Below are positions 1 through 8,480 of a DNA stretch of 64,000 bases, one piece after another. The DNA comes from Bacillota bacterium (GTDB lineage: Bacteria; Bacillota; Bacilli; Bu12). Under the pieces are notes generated by a model. That model was not told where the DNA came from and did no database searches. It saw only the letters and a list, made by a program, of their open reading frames with translations. Within the stretch, counting starts at the first letter, position 1; each line of letters begins with the position of its first letter. The position numbers were made by a program, and so were the translations under genes. The stretch spans positions 1-64,000 of the forward strand of contig JADBKH010000008.1 in assembly GCA_014896485.1 (NCBI GenBank), in the 5' to 3' direction.

Positions 1-144
1 TGTCCCAACTACGAGGAGCAAAGCCAACAATTTTCGGCAATTACCGCCAAAAAAAGAGCTGGACGCCTTTTGCGGTTTTCGTAGAATTAGAACACTGTTG
101 CGGGAAAAGAGCAAAAGTAAGTGCATGTGAAAGGAGAAAAAGTT

Positions 145-1263
145 TTGGCAAATGCCGCCAGCCAGCTCGCACCCAATGCCCACTCGGCAGGATCCACGAC
201 CGATCTGATGATCTCCGATCTCGCAGAACGTTTCGAGCAAAATCCTTTGATACGTCCGCAAGATGTACCGCCGAGCGTCGATGGCTTTGTCGTCGAAGGC
301 GTCTTTAACCCGGGCGCTTTCCGAATGGGCGATCGATTTTTTCTACTGCTGCGTGTGGCTGAGCGACCGGTGCCGCGCGAGGGAGTCGTGACCACGCCTA
401 TCTTTGACGCTGGAACCGGCGAGGTACGCGTGCTGCAATTCCGTGAAAACGACCCGCTGCTGCGTTCCGTCGATGCGCGCGGTTTTTGGTATGGCAACCA
501 GATGTACCTTACCACCCTCTCTCACCTGCGCCTCGCTTCTAGCCGTGACGGCGTCTCGTTTGAAGTGGAGCCCAAACCTTTGCTGACCGGCTTGTAGCCG
601 CTGGAAACGTTCGGAATGGAAGATTGTCGGGTGACGGAAATCGAGGGTTCCTATTACCTTACCTATACCCAGGTCTCCCCCAACGGTGCAGGTGTTGGGT
701 TGATCAGCACCAGAGACTGGCAGCAGTTCGAGCGCCATGGGATGATCTTTGCACCGCCCAACAAGGATTGTGCGGTTTTCCCAGAGTCAATCGACGGCGT
801 TTACTTTGCACTGCATCGGCCCAGTACCGCACCATTGGGTGGCAATTTCATCTGGCTTGCTTCGTCTCCCGATTTAGAGCATTGGGGGGACCATCAAGTG
901 CTCCTGCGCACCCGACCAAACAGCTGGGACAGCAGCCGCGTCGGTGCTGGAGCGGCACCCATCCGGACCGACAAAGGCTGGCTAGAGATCTATCACGGGG
1001 CAGATGAAAACGATCGTTATGCACTCGGTGCCATACTGCTAGATGCACATGATCCCCATCGTATCTTGGCGCGATCGGTGACGCCGATCATGGAGCCGAT
1101 TGCCCCGTACGAACGAAACGGCTTTTTCAACAATGTGGTCTTCAGCAACGGCCTCGTGCGCTCTGGCGATGAGTTGTTGCTCTATTACGGCGCAGCTGAC
1201 CGCCTCACCTGTGGCGCCCGCCTCTCGCTCAAGCAGATTCTTGAAAGCTTAGAAGAGGAATAG
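145..1263 (+). pseudogene. GH130 family glycosidase/phosphorylase, interrupted by in-frame TAG
   Basis: The reading frame resembles glycoside hydrolase family 130, enzymes that phosphorolyse or hydrolyse beta-mannosides in the cytoplasm. The N-terminal part has the family pattern NPLI...VFNPGAF....LLLRVAE; the C-terminal part has GMEDCR, YYLTYT and IYHGAD-type motifs. Both halves lie in the same frame, separated only by TAG at 595-597, about codon 151, just before the GMEDCR motif. A CAG-to-TAG change would explain it. I place the start at TTG 145 because AAGGAG lies 8 bases upstream; GTG 121 is in frame but has no ribosome site. It faces two sugar ABC permeases and a broken binding protein, so the locus was probably a manno-oligosaccharide uptake and use cassette. 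A sequencing error at 595 is the alternative. Confidence 0.8.
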
Positions 1264-1327
1264 GTAGTCAAAGAATATCCTACAGGAATCCCCCAATCAT
1301 TTGTCCTTTAGATTCGAAGTAGATTCG

Positions 1328-1366
1328 AAGGATAAGGCGGGCTGAGGCCTGCCTTATCCTTCTTTG
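1328..1366 (+). terminator. Intrinsic terminator after GH130
   Basis: Arms AAGGATAAGGC (1328-1338) and GCCTTATCCTT (1351-1361) are perfectly complementary, with further G/C pairing inside, followed by TCTTTGC. The stop of the convergent permease gene (1354) lies inside it. Just upstream is an 11-base tandem repeat of AGATTCGAAG (about 1310-1330). Confidence 0.65.
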
Positions 1367-2235
1367 CTTCCTGTAAAGGTAATACCCTCAATGAAATAGC
1401 GTTGGGCCAAAAAGAAAAGCAGGAGCATGGGGAGCATCGTCAATACCGAAGCCGCCATCAATAGATTCCAGTCTGTTCGAAAGGAGCCTTTAAATAGATT
1501 CAATCCCAGCTGAAGTGTAAACAAGTTGTGATCATCGAGGTAGATGAGCGGTGCCAAAAAATCATTCCATGCCCCTTGAAAGGACAGAATGGCTACTGCA
1601 GTAAGAGCAGGTCTTGTTAAAGGAAGAACGATGTAGCGAAATCGTTGAAATGCGTTCGCCCCATCTATGAGAGCAGCTTCATCCAAATCGTAGGGGATAC
1701 CCATCATAAACTGTCTTAATAGAAAAATGTAGAATGCAGATCCAAAAAATGCTGGCACAATAAGTGGTAAGTATGAATTTAGCCATCCCAGGTCACGAAA
1801 AAGAATATATTGGGGTACCATCAGAACCTGATAAGGGATCATGGTAGTGGCTAACATAATGATGAATAAGATATTCTTCCCTGGAAAACGAAACCGCGCA
1901 AATCCGTAAGCAATGAAAGCACTGGATAATACGTTACCTAATGCGACCAAGCCAGCAACTAAAAGCGTATTTAGTGTATAGCGTAAGAAAGGAATAACTG
2001 TCGTAGCTTGAATATAATTACTCCAATAAAACTTTGTGGGAATCCATTTTGGCGGAAACAGAAAGATCTCATCGCTCTCTTTGAAGGAAGAGAGTACGAG
2101 CCAAGCAAAGGGAATTAGAAATGCAATCGAGAGCACGATCAGTGCTACATAGGACACCACACGACCAGGTCGGACCTTTGGTCTTGGCGATCCTATTTGA
2201 GGAGGATGGGTGGACACACTCAGAGCCTGACTCAA
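1354..2235 (-). CDS. Sugar ABC transporter permease, MalG/UgpE type
   Basis: This 293-residue protein is an inner-membrane permease of the carbohydrate uptake (CUT1) ABC class, MalG-like. A cytoplasmic N-terminus is followed by six hydrophobic segments. The cytoplasmic EAA loop that contacts the ATPase is visible as EAALIDGANAFQRFRYIVLP. The C-terminus ends in the family's F.....F..G...GS-type tail. The start is a TTG overlapping the TGA of the upstream permease gene (TTGA), with GGGGGTGA upstream, so the two are translationally coupled. Base composition is clearly more AT-rich than most of the window, suggesting acquisition. No ATPase gene is nearby; such importers often share an MsmX-type ATPase. 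The cognate binding protein is broken, so present function is doubtful. Confidence 0.9.
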   Translation of the reverse strand: MSQALSVSTHPPQIGSPRPKVRPGRVVSYVALIVLSIAFLIPFAWLVLSSFKESDEIFLFPPKWIPTKFYWSNYIQATTVIPFLRYTLNTLLVAGLVALGNVLSSAFIAYGFARFRFPGKNILFIIMLATTMIPYQVLMVPQYILFRDLGWLNSYLPLIVPAFFGSAFYIFLLRQFMMGIPYDLDEAALIDGANAFQRFRYIVLPLTRPALTAVAILSFQGAWNDFLAPLIYLDDHNLFTLQLGLNLFKGSFRTDWNLLMAASVLTMLPMLLLFFLAQRYFIEGITFTGSKEG

Positions 2236-3170
2236 CGACGTTCACCCCCATAATAGACCCAAATACTTGACGATCTGAATATAAGGAGCGTTAACAATAG
2301 AATGATGACCAACATCACCCAGGCCAATGCCGATGCATAACCAAGGTTGAGATTTGAAAAGGCCTGTTGATAAACGTAGAGCGCATAAAAGAGACCCGCG
2401 TCATTTGTACCGCTTCCCGAGCCTACACCTTGTCCAAGAATAAATGGAGTTGTAAAATAGCTAAAAGATCCAATAATTCCTTGGATTACGTTATAAAATA
2501 AAACGGGAGAAATCATGGGCAGGGTAATATGCCAAAAGCGCGCCCAAGTTCCCGCACCGTCCAATATCGCAGCTTCAATCAAACTTTTCGGAACGTCCTG
2601 TAGCCCCGCCAATGAAACAATCATCGCTGTCCCCACACCCCAAAGGCTCATTAAGATATAGGCGGGAACCGTCCATTCTGGCGCGATCAACCATTGGGGT
2701 AACGATTCTTTGGGAATCCCAAAAAAATGCAAAGCAGCATTGAGAATGCCAAAGTCAGGATTAAGGATCCAGTTCCATAAAACTGCTGTTGCCACGGGAG
2801 GAAGCACCGCTGGCAAATAGAAAATGGTCCGAAAGATCCCGAGACCGCAAACGCGCTGGTTCAGTAGAAGTGCTAAACCCACTGCTACGGCCAAATCTAA
2901 AGGTACAGAGACAATGGCATAGTAAAAGGTCACCCATAAGGCAATATAAAATCGATGATCATGAAAGAGCAATATATAATTTGCTACACAAATAAATTTT
3001 GGTGGTTCCAACAAGTTGTAATTGGTAAAACTGAGCAAACCAGAGGCAAGAAAGGGTCCAACTGCAAATACCAGCAGCCCGATAACCCCTGGTGAAACGA
3101 ACGCTAATCCAGTCCAAGCTTCTCTTCGCCTGAGCCGGTTCAATGTACGATAACTCCCTTCTAAACACAC
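2232..3170 (-). CDS. Sugar ABC transporter permease, MalF/UgpA type
   Basis: The 312-residue product is a MalF-type inner-membrane permease of a CUT1 sugar importer. A short basic N-terminus (RLRRREAW) precedes a first membrane helix and five more. The EAA-type coupling loop reads EAAILDGAGTWARFWHITLP, near residue 215. It pairs with the downstream MalG-type permease through a 4-base overlap. GTG 3170 gives the longest frame; TTG 3143, ten codons in, has a better ribosome site (AGAAGGGAG) and may be the true start. The sequence is AT-rich: the 60 bases from 2881 are 43% GC by hand count. Substrate cannot be read from the sequence; the adjacent GH130 remnant suggests beta-mannosides. Confidence 0.9.
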   Translation of the reverse strand: MCLEGSYRTLNRLRRREAWTGLAFVSPGVIGLLVFAVGPFLASGLLSFTNYNLLEPPKFICVANYILLFHDHRFYIALWVTFYYAIVSVPLDLAVAVGLALLLNQRVCGLGIFRTIFYLPAVLPPVATAVLWNWILNPDFGILNAALHFFGIPKESLPQWLIAPEWTVPAYILMSLWGVGTAMIVSLAGLQDVPKSLIEAAILDGAGTWARFWHITLPMISPVLFYNVIQGIIGSFSYFTTPFILGQGVGSGSGTNDAGLFYALYVYQQAFSNLNLGYASALAWVMLVIILLLTLLIFRSSSIWVYYGGERR

Positions 3171-3232
3171 AAGTACCTCTCGTTGAAAGGGTACCTGCGC
3201 TTGCTCTCAATAAATAGATTAAGTCGCTCCCA

Positions 3233-4020
3233 TCATTTCTTGTTCAAAATAGCCTGAAGATCGCTAGCAGCCTTTGCAGCTGCTGTCGCAGCGTCTGTCT
3301 TTGCTGAAAGGATAGGCTGGTAAATATCATTGCTCATAATGTTGTAATAGTCGGTCATATCCTGAATCTGTAACGGAAGGCGAGCATACTTAGCAGAGTT
3401 AAGGATAGGCGCGATGCGATCCTGAGGCGTATGCCCGTTCGGCGCATCCGGAATTTCAATATCTGCTAGATTAGCTGCATACTGCTTGATAGGAGTAAGA
3501 ACTTTCCAATGATCAATTTTTTCGAGTAAGGCACACATCGCCTGGAATGCCAAATCTGGATTCTTTACTTTTGCATTGATTGCCATGTCCGCTACGTATA
3601 AGTACGTTGCGGGTTGGGTTCCTATCGGCATTTCTGCCACTTTTGCTGTAAACCCTTTGGTATCATAATTGCCATCCGCAGCGCCGCCAGCAAACATAGC
3701 GACCCGCCCTTGCCGGAAAAGATCCTCGCTATCTACGTTGGCTAACTGGGAAGGTGGGGGTGTAATTTGATCCTTAACAAAATTTTCCATTAACTTCAAG
3801 CCCTGAACCGCATTCGGCTGGCCAATCGTAACCTGAGAGTGATCCTTACTAAATACGTCTCCACCGTAGGCCCATATGTACATCTCAACGGGCGGCCAAC
3901 CATTTGTTTGCACATATCCATATTGATTTTTTGAGGATTCATCAGTTTTTTAGCATCCTGCAAAAATTCATCCCATGTCCACCCGGGCTTTGGTTCCTGC
4001 AATCCTGCTTGCTTAAAAGA
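3233..4020 (-). pseudogene. Truncated, frameshifted sugar-binding protein
   Basis: This is the remnant of an extracellular solute-binding protein (family 1) for the adjacent permeases. The C-terminal part is open from a GTG at 3913 (reads VQTNGWPP...YIWAYGGDVF) to 3233. The preceding segment (FKQAGLQEPKPGW.WDEFLQDAKKL) lies in another frame. They join smoothly if one A is restored in the A6 run at 3927-3932, giving NPQKNQYGYVQTNG, a normal motif. Independently of the frameshift, the N-terminal third with signal peptide and lipobox is absent: recognisable similarity starts at about 4017 and sequence towards 4196 is unrelated. Without it the importer should be inactive unless another binding protein substitutes. 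Confidence 0.85.
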
Positions 4021-4195
4021 TGCAATCACCCTTTTTAATGCTACCAAGAGCAAGGAAGGAATACGCGAAGGGCCTGCCACCCTCTCGACCCTTTAAAGTG
4101 TTAAGAGACCTGCCGACTAACCAGCAGGCCTGAAGTTCATTCGACTTTCCAAACAAACAAGTCTAGAGATACCTTCTCCCCCTATTTGCTAGCTA

Positions 4196-5269
4196 CTAAG
4201 GTGAAGGGGGTCCTGACTGAATCTCTGTAAAGCGAACGGGAAGCACGAGTGTTTCGATGCGGCTGCCATCTTTGGGGCTGTACGCGTAGACAAGGACAGC
4301 GCCCGTTTTGTTGGTCGGCTTGTTGAAATGCACCGTGACGTCGAAGCGATAATCGGTGTTGACGTGTATCGGTTGACGGGCAAGGACATCATGTCCATCT
4401 TCGATATCGACCATGAAAGTTCCCTCAAAAAACTGCGTGGCTCCCCCAGAAAGGCGTACCTTCTCGGTCAGCGACTGTCCCGACTGGGGAGTTTCCAAAT
4501 AAAGGTATGTCGGGTTCTCCTGCACTTTGCCGTATCCGGAAACCCCGTTGTCTAACGTCACATCCGTTGCCAATGTGCCGCTTCCTCGCAAGGAACGAAA
4601 GCTAATGTGCAAAGGTCCTGGCCCAGGAGAGGGCAGGTAGTAGGTAAACCCCAGATTTTCTTTGGCCAACGAGACCCGCGCCGTTGCCAATCGAACGTTC
4701 CCACGGAAAACGTTCAATTCGCTCAGCCCTTCCCAGGTTCGGATGGGCGCAACGGTCACCGCAATTCGAGGTCCGGAGATGGCTTGTTCGTAGTGGACCT
4801 GCAGTGCGCCGGAATTGCCCGGAACAGAGGAAGGTTGCGGTTTCTCTGTCTGCTGGTTTGGCACGACAATACCGATTGTATGATCGTTCCCACCTGGGAT
4901 CGTAGCGGGATTTTGTTGAGGAAGGATGTCCACCTGTGGAAGGGTATTCTCCTTACCGGCCAATGCGTGGTTTGCTTCCTGTTTGGCAGTATTGTCAGGA
5001 CCCAGCGTCAACAATACAACTACGGCAACAACAGCAACACCGACGACAGCTGTTCCGACGACCCGGATGGGAAAATGCCGCTTAGGAAACGAAGAAGGAG
5101 GTTTTTCTTCGGATGGATGCATGGACTCACGCTCCTTTGAATCGGACACGACATCTGGAAAACGCGCATACCTTGCCGTCGCCGCTTTGACCAACTTTTC
5201 CCGAAAAGTGGCGTGAAATCCTTCTTTCTCCTTGTAGCGGGGCAATTCGGGTAGCCGCTGATCACGCAT
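4196..5269 (-). CDS. Membrane anti-sigma factor-like protein with C-terminal Gmad2 domain
   Basis: The 357-residue protein is probably the anti-sigma factor for the overlapping ECF sigma gene. The N-terminal ~65 residues are charged and cytoplasmic, one membrane helix spans about residues 68-89, and the rest is extracytoplasmic. The last ~90 residues resemble the Gmad2 immunoglobulin-like domain of spore germination and surface lipoproteins (pattern YLETPQSGQSL..KVRLSG, then AYSPKDGS). The start ATG 5269 lies inside the end of the sigma gene (8-base overlap) with GGAGG 6 bases upstream, so the two are coupled. I see no clear zinc anti-sigma HxxxCxxC motif, so binding of the sigma factor is inferred from context and topology. 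It could instead be another surface sensor. Confidence 0.7.
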   Translation of the reverse strand: MRDQRLPELPRYKEKEGFHATFREKLVKAATARYARFPDVVSDSKERESMHPSEEKPPSSFPKRHFPIRVVGTAVVGVAVVAVVVLLTLGPDNTAKQEANHALAGKENTLPQVDILPQQNPATIPGGNDHTIGIVVPNQQTEKPQPSSVPGNSGALQVHYEQAISGPRIAVTVAPIRTWEGLSELNVFRGNVRLATARVSLAKENLGFTYYLPSPGPGPLHISFRSLRGSGTLATDVTLDNGVSGYGKVQENPTYLYLETPQSGQSLTEKVRLSGGATQFFEGTFMVDIEDGHDVLARQPIHVNTDYRFDVTVHFNKPTNKTGAVLVYAYSPKDGSRIETLVLPVRFTEIQSGPPSP

Positions 5270-5840
5270 GAGGCACCTCCCTGCCCATTCGCCGCAGCTG
5301 TTTTTCCGCACGTCGCAATGCACGGAAATACAAGACCTTGACGGCTGCTTCGCTGCGCCCCATCACGCGGGCAATCTCACCAAATGGCATCTCCTCCTGC
5401 CAACGAAGGATCAACACCGTGCGGTCATCGGGTGCCAGTTGTGCGAGCAGCGCGACGATCTCAGCATGCTGTTCATGAGCCATCAGCGTTTCCTCAGGTG
5501 TTGCACCGGGCTCGACAAGTGCTTGAAAGGTCAATGAGGTTTCTACGCTTTCCGTATGCCTTTTTCCCTGGCGGTAGGTATCGGTAAGAAGGTTTCGGGC
5601 AATTTGAAAGAGCCATCCTTTAAAGGAGCCCTCGTCCCGATAACTGGGGAGGGCCTCGAGAACATGAAGAAACGTCTCTTGAACCAAATCTTCAGTAAGA
5701 GACGCGGAAGAGACACGATGGCGGAAAAAGTTGTAGAGCGCATCCCCATAGCGGTCGTAGAGTAAGCCGAAAGCCTCTCCATTGCCTCCTAGTGTTTCAC
5801 GGACCAACGCTGCGTCATCGGCACCTCGCCCAATCGCCAC
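5262..5840 (-). CDS. ECF-type RNA polymerase sigma factor
   Basis: The 192-residue product has the two-domain layout of group 4 sigma factors. Region 2 (about residues 20-90) contains LYDRYGDALYNFFRHRV and the core-binding DLVQETFLHV followed by GWLFQIARNLLTDTYRQ. Region 4 (about 130-180) has the helix-turn-helix MPFGEIARVMGRSEAAVKVL. It directs transcription of a stress or envelope regulon, probably including itself, because a matching ECF promoter lies 28 bases upstream. It overlaps the anti-sigma gene by 8 bases. The start is GTG 5840; an in-frame TAG immediately upstream rules out a longer form, though the GGGGGAG site sits very close to this GTG. Confidence 0.93.
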   Translation of the reverse strand: MAIGRGADDAALVRETLGGNGEAFGLLYDRYGDALYNFFRHRVSSASLTEDLVQETFLHVLEALPSYRDEGSFKGWLFQIARNLLTDTYRQGKRHTESVETSLTFQALVEPGATPEETLMAHEQHAEIVALLAQLAPDDRTVLILRWQEEMPFGEIARVMGRSEAAVKVLYFRALRRAEKQLRRMGREVPHA

Positions 5841-5867
5841 CTCCCCCTACCCCTCCCCACACCGATA

Positions 5868-5896
5868 TAGACGTAACTGTACCCTATAAAGTTACA
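5868..5896 (-). promoter_or_regulatory. ECF sigma promoter of the sigma/anti-sigma operon
   Basis: On the minus strand, TGTAAC (5896-5891), a 17-base spacer, and CGTCTA (5873-5868) match the usual ECF -35 AAC and -10 CGTC elements. The -10 lies 28 bases before the GTG start at 5840. This suggests autoregulation, the common arrangement for ECF sigma factors. Confidence 0.7.
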
Positions 5897-5950
5897 CAGG
5901 GATCTCCATCTGTGCCGTGATCCATTCGGTCTAGAAATGTCGCACCTATT

Positions 5951-5980
5951 TTGCCTCTCCATCTTCCGTCGCAATATGTA
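5951..5980 (+). promoter_or_regulatory. Possible SigA promoter for the oxidase operon
   Basis: TTGCCT (5951-5956), an 18-base spacer and TATGTA (5975-5980) precede the oxidase genes by about 100 bases. The match is partial. Confidence 0.3.
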
Positions 5981-6083
5981 GCCCAACATACTTCATTCAG
6001 TCGATCCATAAAATGCGCACGTTTCGTATGCTTACCGCAGAGCACAAAAGGCCCCTGTCTGAAGCATCAGAGGAGGTGTACAG

Positions 6084-6254
6084 ATGGACCATAATGGGAC
6101 GAATGACGAGACAAGCGCCGCCCAAGAAGCTGTCCAAGCGGCACCGGAGGACCAGCGATCGCTGCGCACGGCATTTGGTTGGGCAGGGATCGTAGGCGGC
6201 ATTCTCATCGCTTGCTGGGTAGCTGCTTTCTTGCTGTTTACATCGCGCATGTGA
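6084..6254 (+). CDS. cbaD: ba3-type oxidase small subunit IIa-like protein
   Basis: A 56-residue protein, MDHNGTNDETS... ending TSRM, with ATG 6084 behind a strong AGGAGGTG (6071-6077). It has an acidic hydrophilic N-terminus and one membrane helix near residues 32-52 (AGIVGGILIACWVAAFLLF). It lies 19 bases upstream of oxidase subunit II. In Thermus ba3 oxidase and Bacillales relatives, a one-helix subunit IIa fills the place of the missing first helix of subunit II, so size, topology and position fit. Sequence similarity alone would not identify it. Confidence 0.75.
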   Translation: MDHNGTNDETSAAQEAVQAAPEDQRSLRTAFGWAGIVGGILIACWVAAFLLFTSRM

Positions 6255-6273
6255 CGAATGGAGGCAGAGGTAA

Positions 6274-6738
6274 ATGCACTTTCCCCGTTACGAAAAGATC
6301 TGGCTGGCGATCGGAGGAGGGGCGCTGGCTGTCTTTCTCATCGTCTTGGGCATCTACGGCTTTGGAATGGGCTTCAACACGCCCCATGATACACAAACCG
6401 TCGATGCACAGACGATCTCCCAGAATCCGAATTTCCAACCCGGTGTAAAACAGACCGGACCCAACCGTTATGAGGTGACCATCGTTGCCCGGACATTCAG
6501 CTTTGCGCCGGCAGTCATCCAGGTGCCGGCAGGTGCAGAGGTTACTTTCCGCATGACATCCGCTGATGTTGTCCATGGGTTTGAAATTCCGCAAACCAAT
6601 GTCAACGTCATGGTGGTTCCCGGGCAAGTGACTACGATTACCCATACCTTTGAGAAGCCCGGCAACTACCTGATCCTCTGCAACGAATATTGTGGTACCG
6701 GCCATCAATTGATGCAGGCACAACTGCAAGTGCAATAG
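6274..6738 (+). CDS. cbaB: Cytochrome c oxidase subunit II, ba3 type
   Basis: The 154-residue protein carries the CuA electron-entry site of a B-family heme-copper oxidase. An N-terminal membrane anchor (about residues 10-30) is followed by a cupredoxin domain outside the membrane. The CuA ligands are visible: H101 (VVHGF), then C136, E138, C140, H144 and M147 in CNEYCGTGHQLM. One N-terminal helix and the short length are typical of ba3, not aa3, subunit II. It accepts electrons from cytochrome c or another small carrier and passes them to subunit I, encoded directly downstream. The c-type cytochrome lipoprotein at 26.1-26.5 kb is a possible donor, though unlinked. Confidence 0.93.
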   Translation: MHFPRYEKIWLAIGGGALAVFLIVLGIYGFGMGFNTPHDTQTVDAQTISQNPNFQPGVKQTGPNRYEVTIVARTFSFAPAVIQVPAGAEVTFRMTSADVVHGFEIPQTNVNVMVVPGQVTTITHTFEKPGNYLILCNEYCGTGHQLMQAQLQVQ

Positions 6739-6776
6739 ACGCCGAGAGAGACGGCGTTGGGAAAAGAGGGAGGATA

Positions 6777-8480
6777 TTGGCTGCTGTAGAAGTTCCATCC
6801 TCACGAGAGGCACACCCTGAAAAGCAGGGAGGACCCTTTTCAAAACCGGATGCAAACTTGAGCTTGGCACATTTTATCGTCGTCTTTGTCGCACTCGTTC
6901 TGGGCGGTATCGCCGGTGCTTTGCAAGCAGAGGTTCGTTCCGGAACCTTAACCCTCCCGGCGGGAATCGACTATTATGCACTTCTAACCTTACATGGGGT
7001 CGTGATGGCGCTCGTAGTGACCACCTATTTTATTGTAGGTTTTCTACTTGCATTCTCCGGTCACCTGCTGGGCGGTGAACTCAAACCAACACCCCGATTG
7101 CTCGGTTGGATTGGATTTATCGTCATGACCCTAGGAACTGCGATGGCCGCCATTGAAATTCTGCTCGGCAACGCTTCCGTGCTCTATACGTTTTACGCGC
7201 CGATGCAAGCTTCCCCTTGGTTCTACGTCGGTGTTACCCTGCTCATTGTTGGCAGTTGGATCAGTGGCGCGGCGATCTTCGTTCAATACCATCTGTGGCG
7301 GAAAGAACACCCCGGCGAACGCTCACCTTTGGGTGCCTTTATGGCCGTCTGTACGTTTATTCTGTGGGACATCGCCACGTTGGGCGTAGCGATCGAGTCC
7401 CTCTTCCAGCTGATACCCTGGTCTTTCGGCTTGACGAAAACCATCAACGTCGAACTCTCCCGGACTTTCTTCTGGTACTTTGGTCACCCGCTGGTCTACT
7501 TCTGGCTTTTGCCGGCCTATATTGTCTGGTACACCGTCATTCCCAAGATTGTCGGAGGCAAAGTCTTCAGCGACACGCTGGCACGATTTGCCTTCCTGTT
7601 ATTCATTCTCTTCAGTGTGCCCGTTGGCTTTCACCATCAGTTAATGGATCCTGGCATCCAAAGTGGCTGGAAGTTTGTTCAAGTCGTGCTCACCATGATG
7701 GTCGTCATTCCTTCGCTGATGACTGCCTACGCGCTCTTTGCCACCTTTATCCGCGCAGGCAGGGCCAAAGGTCAGACCGGTTTTACTGGTTGGTTGAAGG
7801 CGATGCCTTGGGGAGACGTCCGTTTTCTGGCTCCCTTTATCGGTATGGTCGGCTTCATCTTTGGTGGTGCTGGTGGCATCATCAACGCCAGCAACCAGAT
7901 GAATGCGATGGTCCACAATACCCTGTGGGTGACCGGCCACTTCCACGAAACCTTGGCATTGACGGTTATCCTCACTTTCTTTGGGGCCAGCTACTGGCTG
8001 CTCCCCGCACTCTCCGGACGCAAACTGACACCACAGATGAACAAGCTCGGCATCCTGCAGACGATCTTGTGGACGGTCGGTATGGTGATCATGAGTGGGG
8101 CCATGCATGCCGTCGGCCTGTTGGGAGCCCCACGTCGCACCTCGTATACGACCTACCAAAACAATCCTCTGGCCCAGACGTGGGTAGGCTATGAGCAGTG
8201 GATGGCCATTGGTGGGATCATCCTCTTTATCGGGTTGGCCTTGATGGTCTACAACGCCTTCCGGATGATCTATGGGGCGCCCAAGGGATATACGGAGGTT
8301 CCCGTCGCTGATATCGAAGAGGAAGCCGGCACTCCCCCTGCCATCTTTGAGAAGTGGTGGTTGTGGATCGGCATTACGGTGGTGTTGGTGCTAATCGCGT
8401 ACTTTGTCCCCGTGACACAAATGATTCAAAACGCAGGCCCCGGTTCGCCCGGCTTTAATACCTGGAACTTTGGCCGATAA
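6777..8480 (+). CDS. cbaA: Cytochrome c oxidase subunit I, ba3 type (B family)
   Basis: This is the catalytic membrane subunit reducing O2 to water and pumping protons. From TTG 6777 it has 567 residues and about 13 membrane helices. Expected ligands are present: H73 (LTLHGVV) for the low-spin heme; H237 with cross-linked Y241 (FGHPLVYFW) and H286/H287 (GFHHQLMD) for CuB; H388 and H390 (TGHFHETL) for the a3 heme iron and low-spin heme. The absence of the A-family proton-channel signature supports the B family. No ATG or GTG precedes the first helix in a sensible place; TTG 6777 follows GAGGGAGG by only 3 bases, so the exact start is uncertain. A strong terminator follows. Confidence 0.95.
   Translation: MAAVEVPSSREAHPEKQGGPFSKPDANLSLAHFIVVFVALVLGGIAGALQAEVRSGTLTLPAGIDYYALLTLHGVVMALVVTTYFIVGFLLAFSGHLLGGELKPTPRLLGWIGFIVMTLGTAMAAIEILLGNASVLYTFYAPMQASPWFYVGVTLLIVGSWISGAAIFVQYHLWRKEHPGERSPLGAFMAVCTFILWDIATLGVAIESLFQLIPWSFGLTKTINVELSRTFFWYFGHPLVYFWLLPAYIVWYTVIPKIVGGKVFSDTLARFAFLLFILFSVPVGFHHQLMDPGIQSGWKFVQVVLTMMVVIPSLMTAYALFATFIRAGRAKGQTGFTGWLKAMPWGDVRFLAPFIGMVGFIFGGAGGIINASNQMNAMVHNTLWVTGHFHETLALTVILTFFGASYWLLPALSGRKLTPQMNKLGILQTILWTVGMVIMSGAMHAVGLLGAPRRTSYTTYQNNPLAQTWVGYEQWMAIGGIILFIGLALMVYNAFRMIYGAPKGYTEVPVADIEEEAGTPPAIFEKWWLWIGITVVLVLIAYFVPVTQMIQNAGPGSPGFNTWNFGR

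Follow-up and report, generated by a model that had tools for sequence, protein, structure and literature searches.

The window analysed here is a stretch of 64,000 nucleotides, the minus strand of which carries a gene for an ECF sigma factor followed by a gene for a membrane protein. The start of the second gene overlaps the end of the first by 8 bases, and a promoter-like element lies upstream of both (Table 1). The sigma gene product scores above the Pfam cut-offs for both Sigma70_r2 (63.8 bits) and Sigma70_r4_2 (49.4 bits). With 192 aa and regions 2 and 4 only, it has the composition and the length (about 190 aa) of an ECF sigma factor, and the preliminary description of the locus was thus right on this point. 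Comparison of residues 13-91 with solved structures yielded 6dxo_A as the top match (E 1.3e-21), which we take to be BldN of the RsbN-BldN complex. Likewise, TIGR02952, the BldN equivalog, is the nearest model by score, at 127.2 bits, a value below its cut-off of 206.45, so that the protein is not a member. No close orthologue was found in a class sample of 398 genomes including its own, in which up to 8 candidates per genome were scored at an E limit of 1e-20; the best match in another genome reached 97.8 bits (34%). The source genome holds eight matches to sigma region 2, of which two are ECF-sized frames, the one in the window included.

Table 1. Features of the sigma factor operon in the window.
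Feature	Position	Strand	Details
-35-like element TGTAAC	5891..5896	-	exact sequence match
-10-like element CGTCTA	5868..5873	-	27 bases before the sigma start codon
ECF sigma factor gene	5262..5840	-	192 aa, GTG start; Sigma70_r2 and Sigma70_r4_2
Putative membrane-anchored anti-sigma factor gene	4196..5269	-	357 aa; ATG at 5269, stop at 4196
Cytoplasmic N-terminus, putative sigma-binding part	5078..5269	-	residues 1-64; helix 18-34 predicted, low confidence
Transmembrane segment	4985..5077	-	residues 65-95; hydropathy
Extracytoplasmic stalk	4775..4984	-	residues 96-165; predicted disordered, pLDDT block means 27-36 over 91-160
Middle all-beta domain, probably Ig-like	4550..4774	-	about residues 166-240; predicted strands
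Gmad2 domain	4262..4495	-	residues 259-336; PF10648

The surroundings of the operon were also inspected. Beside the end of the membrane protein gene, a gene for a sugar ABC substrate-binding protein looks broken (3233-4080, minus strand): only one frame matches SBP_bac_1 (profile positions 165-296 of 307), the frame before it being shifted and without a Pfam match. Further away on the plus strand, a GH130 (mannooligosaccharide phosphorylase) gene is split by a stop into two pieces in the same frame (121-597 and 616-1263), with Pfam GH130 in the second piece only. The GC content is 48% in positions 1-4000 vs 53-60% elsewhere in the window. Divergently oriented genes for subunits II and I of cytochrome c oxidase (6274-8480, plus strand) adjoin the sigma operon, and the two might be controlled from one shared region. 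The hairpin 3′ of the operon is unremarkable (z -1.03), and a search against a defence library gave no match. The other ECF sigma gene of the source genome (L142, on contig 12) is followed by an ordinary zf-HC2 partner and then, as read by eye, by cdaA-like and YbbR-like frames, an order resembling sigW-rsiW-cdaA-ybbR of B. subtilis; CGTAAC-N17-CGTTTA is found upstream of this sigma gene.

Hydropathy gives the membrane protein a single hydrophobic segment, residues 65-95, with 64 residues ahead of it. Its layout is hence that of an ECF anti-sigma factor, in that the gene adjoins an ECF sigma gene and the product has a cytoplasmic N-terminus and one transmembrane helix, as far as hydropathy predicts the topology. 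None of the other frames of at least 80 aa adjoining the sigma gene is anti-sigma-like. The protein contains no cysteine, and therefore lacks the class I zinc anti-sigma motif Hx3Cx2C. Its N-terminus matched no PDB chain and, in pairwise comparisons with other anti-sigma N-termini, showed no similarity above that of shuffles. A profile built from five non-zinc anti-sigma N-termini gave it -0.7 bits, a score equalled or surpassed by 1395 of the 1979 scored shuffles. Residues 41-99 matched CU044_5270 weakly (E 0.076), which was not counted as evidence. Furthermore, no full-length homologue of the protein was found in 60 other genomes, which counts against the switch that we propose below.

Gmad2 domains are known from germination and surface proteins that are themselves uncharacterised. 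A C-terminal domain of this type had been claimed for the membrane protein, and a domain search of 4196-4460 had been suggested. Our results confirm the domain, with PF10648 matching at E 2.7e-11 and 44 bits (cut-off 25.7), and show that the suggested range was nearly right, the domain lying at 4262-4495. It is the sole Gmad2 match found in the source genome. The claim had also been made to hang on a structural match, and this too was obtained: AlphaFold2, given the full protein together with Gmad2 slices from 30 of 42 named loci (a 31-row alignment), modelled residues 261-350 as an Ig-like beta sandwich with pLDDT block means of 89-98. In a structure search the modelled fold matched beta sandwiches with Z up to 10.6, which by our reading are of the Ig/FN3 and macroglobulin types; taken alone, Foldseek gave weak results, as a single one of its 1928 matches reached E ≤0.001. 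As the structure matches only generic beta sandwiches, the fold names no ligand.

Ahead of Gmad2, residues 168-238 were predicted as all-beta with pLDDT block means of 47-70, and the strands appeared again in a single-sequence model of residues 154-352, itself poor (pLDDT 51, Gmad2 part included). A second Ig-like domain at this place is probable from the models. We also considered that it could be a second Gmad2, for which the sequence gave no support, 182 of 1398 scored shuffles scoring at least as high. The preceding residues 96-165, to judge by their predicted disorder, are likely a flexible stalk. Within the Gmad2 domain, which is 47% identical to its nearest rows in the alignment (L070 and L072), an E-D-G-H loop recurs in all seven of the other rows found by similarity or Pfam; its invariance in the 31-row alignment is no evidence, because the rows were fetched with a pattern containing E-D-G-H. 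The P and the W of a GAPxWG stretch, nearly invariant in relatives, are absent from the window domain.

As the N-terminus gave no sequence help on an anti-sigma role, the same architecture was sought in other genomes. Gmad2 matches were present in 98 of 398 genomes of a phylum sample and in 87 of the 398 genomes of the class sample; the window membrane protein as query found matches in 6 of 61 genomes, its own included, and a pattern scan for Gmad2 loci yielded the 42 named loci. The samples overlap, and flanks were taken for nearly all matches. Among 275 loci examined, the own locus excluded, a custom profile recognised a Gmad2 frame in 267, of which 247 are distinct; 12 had less than 400 bases upstream. 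An ECF sigma gene directly upstream and co-oriented accompanies 4 of the 247 distinct frames, two in a family that we call f6 and two in another, f18. Sigma hits that were non-adjacent or not co-oriented (L103, L219, L223, L233, L290) were set aside.

Both genomes examined for f18 have the sigma-Gmad2 pair, and the two Gmad2 proteins are 50% identical over their full length. Directly after the sigma gene, they comprise zf-HC2, PrcB_C and Gmad2, all above cut-off, that is, a recognisable anti-sigma domain and a Gmad2 domain in one chain. The f18 domain does not have the E-D-G-H loop of the window Gmad2; for this reason the idea of one conserved E-D-G-H loop binding one common ligand was dropped. 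The pair was likewise present in both genomes examined for f6, one of which is evidently the same as the ZC4RG07 MAG. Here the protein after the sigma gene consists of a non-zinc N-terminus, a transmembrane helix, a stretch matching Gmad2 that includes E-D-G-H, and a weak SH3_3. The f6 stretches match the window Gmad2 at E 6.5e-6 and 3.0e-5. Pfam Gmad2 gives one member 14 bits (cut-off 25.7) and does not list the other at E 1. The custom Gmad2 profile detects both at E ≤1e-19, though one f6 row was in that profile. Residues 6-103 of the f6 protein, helix included, match a sigma-linked membrane protein without Gmad2 in G055 (E 3.5e-6), and one f6 protein matches CU044_5270 at 4.8e-5.

A different order was found in a third family, f22, in which the Gmad2 gene of six loci (L234, L243, L279, L280, L284, L286) immediately precedes an ECF sigma gene. 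In L234 and L243 a secreted-looking protein with tandem Gmad2 precedes the sigma gene and a separate DUF4179 protein follows it. We regard this arrangement as another link of Gmad2 to ECF signalling. Many free-standing Gmad2 proteins have, by eye, lipoprotein-like or secreted-like starts, and a role of Gmad2 in spores is thus not indicated. One locus (L071) encodes PrcB_C and Gmad2 in a single protein, both above cut-off. In genome G005, a protein (L009/L043/L317) combines LysM-type repeats, recognised by eye, with a C-terminal Gmad2, which suggests wall association of some Gmad2 proteins.

The preliminary description had also proposed that the operon is preceded by a promoter for its own sigma factor. 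Indeed, TGTAAC-N17-CGTCTA is found exactly at 5868-5896 on the minus strand, upstream of the operon. TGTAACN16-17CGTC matches the window twice (shuffle mean 0.10), the second match sitting within an opposing gene; the longer pattern, TGTAAC-N17-CGTCTA, with two mismatches allowed also gives two matches vs a shuffle mean of 2.06, no excess over chance. Sigma-70-type sites were absent from 3900-6300 (0 vs 1.6 in shuffles). CGTCTA and a -35-like element at N16-17 spacing stand upstream of all five Gmad2-coupled sigma operons: besides the window, TGAAAC-N17-CGTCTA in both f18 operons, TGCGAC-N17-CGTCTA in one f6 operon and GGGACC-N16-CGTCTA in the other. A pattern covering all five, composed after its sites had been seen, is matched by 0-2 of 2000 shuffles per region. 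A looser pattern is far less special, with 6-272 of 2000 shuffles matching, and counts against the signal. Taken together, this conservation of sequence is suggestive and speaks for the proposed promoter, and the operon is likely autoregulated from the putative TGTAAC-N17-CGTCTA site. By eye, a perfect inverted repeat of 6 bases, GTAACT-N11-AGTTAC (5873-5895), can also be seen in the promoter-like stretch and is a possible operator.

The definition of a regulon by scanning the genome for this promoter, as had been suggested, found no support. Two exact patterns gave 5 and 2 matches in the source genome vs 20 and 19 for their reversed controls. Besides the operon itself, three of the five matches lie within opposing frames and one (C39) lies ahead of a frame that by eye resembles citrate synthase; the second site of the two-match pattern overlaps an opposing frame and precedes a membrane-protein-like frame.

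We then asked the sigma factors themselves whether the coupling to Gmad2 has one origin or several. A tree was built from 25 sigma factors, 14 near-copies and 3 duplicate loci having been left out beforehand. The five Gmad2-coupled sigma factors fall in three places, and at least two changes are required by branches with strong support. Their union in one clade was rejected (AU p 1.1e-4), as were the grouping of the window with f6 (AU p 0.0046) and that of f6 with f18 (AU p 0.001). By best NCBIfam score, the window and f6 factors are BldN-like and the f18 factors SigW-like, each below its own cut-off. As a single clade of the three sigma lineages is rejected, the coupling probably had more than one origin. 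The window sigma factor sits on a long branch, outside any strongly supported small group, and the tool's output carries a warning about long branches meeting; the evidence for separate couplings is hence good, not final.

How, then, might the pair work? We consider it probable, for the reading taken as a whole, that a membrane-anchored anti-sigma factor holds the sigma factor until an envelope signal arrives, the two forming an autoregulated envelope signalling unit. The N-terminal cytoplasmic segment would tether its ECF sigma factor to the membrane, and the single helix predicted from the sequence would anchor the anti-sigma factor. A flexible stalk would present two beta-sandwich domains outside, a probable middle domain and, outermost, Gmad2, which profile and model both show. 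The signal met by these outer domains would probably come as an incoming protein or a component of the envelope. It would disable the anti-sigma factor, and regulated proteolysis, with a RasP-type site-2 protease making the last cut, is the most likely means. The released sigma factor would then transcribe its own operon from TGTAAC-N17-CGTCTA, to judge by the conservation of the motif, and perhaps a few other genes. Gmad2, finally, would be an interchangeable module joined to sigma regulators by separate lineages.

A precedent is offered by SigV-RsiV of Bacillus subtilis, in which, as described in an excerpt of PMC4183432, an ECF sigma factor also stands beside a single-pass anti-sigma factor with an outer sensor, a role that in the window is putative. 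According to the same excerpt, the outer part of RsiV binds lysozyme and the protein is thereby opened to signal peptidase and then to RasP (PMC4183432). By analogy with RsiV, we infer that the outer domains of the window protein would sense and that proteolysis would free the sigma factor. The two differ in their sensors, RsiV being a lysozyme receptor whereas the window protein would instead use Gmad2 and another beta domain. A further difference is the A-L-A triplet at 102-104, which lies some 12 residues beyond the hydrophobic stretch and which we judge by eye to be a poor signal-peptidase site. In the source genome, a match to RasP-type TIGR00054 exceeds the cut-off only when neighbouring pieces are included, its N-terminal part lying in another frame; a PrsW match was not found in that genome.

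Not every part of this proposal stands equally firm. That the two genes encode an ECF sigma/anti-sigma pair, as first described, agrees with the sigma factor, the position, the overlap, the topology and the f18 parallel, but not with the N-terminus, which matches no anti-sigma N-terminus tested. From gene position and overlap, topology and the parallel zf-HC2-PrcB_C-Gmad2 protein of f18, we regard the membrane protein as likely an anti-sigma factor. Another possibility is that the sigma operon encodes a surface protein instead, for instance a wall-associated or protease-guarding effector switched on by the sigma factor. The N-terminus would fit such a protein, as would the lipoprotein-like or secreted-like starts of many Gmad2 proteins seen by eye, the 243 of 247 Gmad2 frames without a sigma gene directly upstream, and f22, where Gmad2 genes precede the sigma gene and a DUF4179 protein follows it in the two loci read. 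Yet in the window the gene comes after the sigma gene and overlaps it, and 64 residues precede the transmembrane helix of its product; no other frame of at least 80 aa beside the sigma gene resembles an anti-sigma factor, and in f18 Gmad2 is fused to zf-HC2 at the very same position. We therefore hold the surface protein to be improbable.

A closer competitor shares the anti-sigma part with our explanation and differs on what senses: Gmad2 would be a mere stalk or wall anchor, and a site-1 protease would be the sensor, as proposed for PrsW/RsiW. Site-1 proteases are indeed thought to be the sensors in the sigma-E and sigma-W systems, as stated in the excerpt of PMC4183432. The generic nature of the beta sandwiches matched by the model would suit a stalk, and so would the missing P and W of GAPxWG; the f18 domain, lacking E-D-G-H, implies that no single loop marks sigma-coupled Gmad2 domains. 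On the other hand, the coupling of Gmad2 to sigma factors that do not form one clade suggests more than a chance stalk, and the genome gave no PrsW match. We give this competitor appreciable weight, clearly under even chances. Returning to the sensing explanation, there may well be something at the cell surface that Gmad2 in the sigma switch senses. Its broader form is that Gmad2 is a true signal-sensing module, plugged by separate Bacillota lineages onto unrelated ECF anti-sigma factors, and that free-standing Gmad2 proteins are envelope-ligand binders too; this we advance tentatively, at somewhat less than even chances.

That anti-sigma factors anchored in the membrane can bear a variety of additional domains is well established, as the excerpts of PMC7406223 and PMC8103513 illustrate. 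In the latter, RsbN is membrane-anchored, and BldN-RsbN of Streptomyces is the system whose sigma factor the window sigma factor scores best against (6dxo_A, TIGR02952); it differs in that the window sigma factor falls under the TIGR02952 cut-off and the window N-terminus matches no PDB chain. The lipoproteins and secreted proteins with Gmad2, some with PrcB_C, share the domain and differ in that most (243 of 247) have no sigma gene directly upstream. The f18 system, with its SigW-like sigma factor, likewise has a sigma gene and then a protein in which Gmad2 lies on the outer side of a likely transmembrane helix, in contrast to the window in its zinc-type anti-sigma domain, its PrcB_C, its want of the E-D-G-H loop and its sigma subfamily by best score. 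In the main texts of the literature searched, we found nothing on Gmad2 together with an anti-sigma factor, and neither a ligand of Gmad2 nor a tested role for it; the domain is listed in a figure of the architectures of BsuPI inhibitor domain proteins (excerpt of PMC3901451). Coupling to a sigma factor would give Gmad2 a readable output: what the domain binds could be approached through a screen for inducers, with a reporter driven from the promoter that the sigma factor would use for its own operon.
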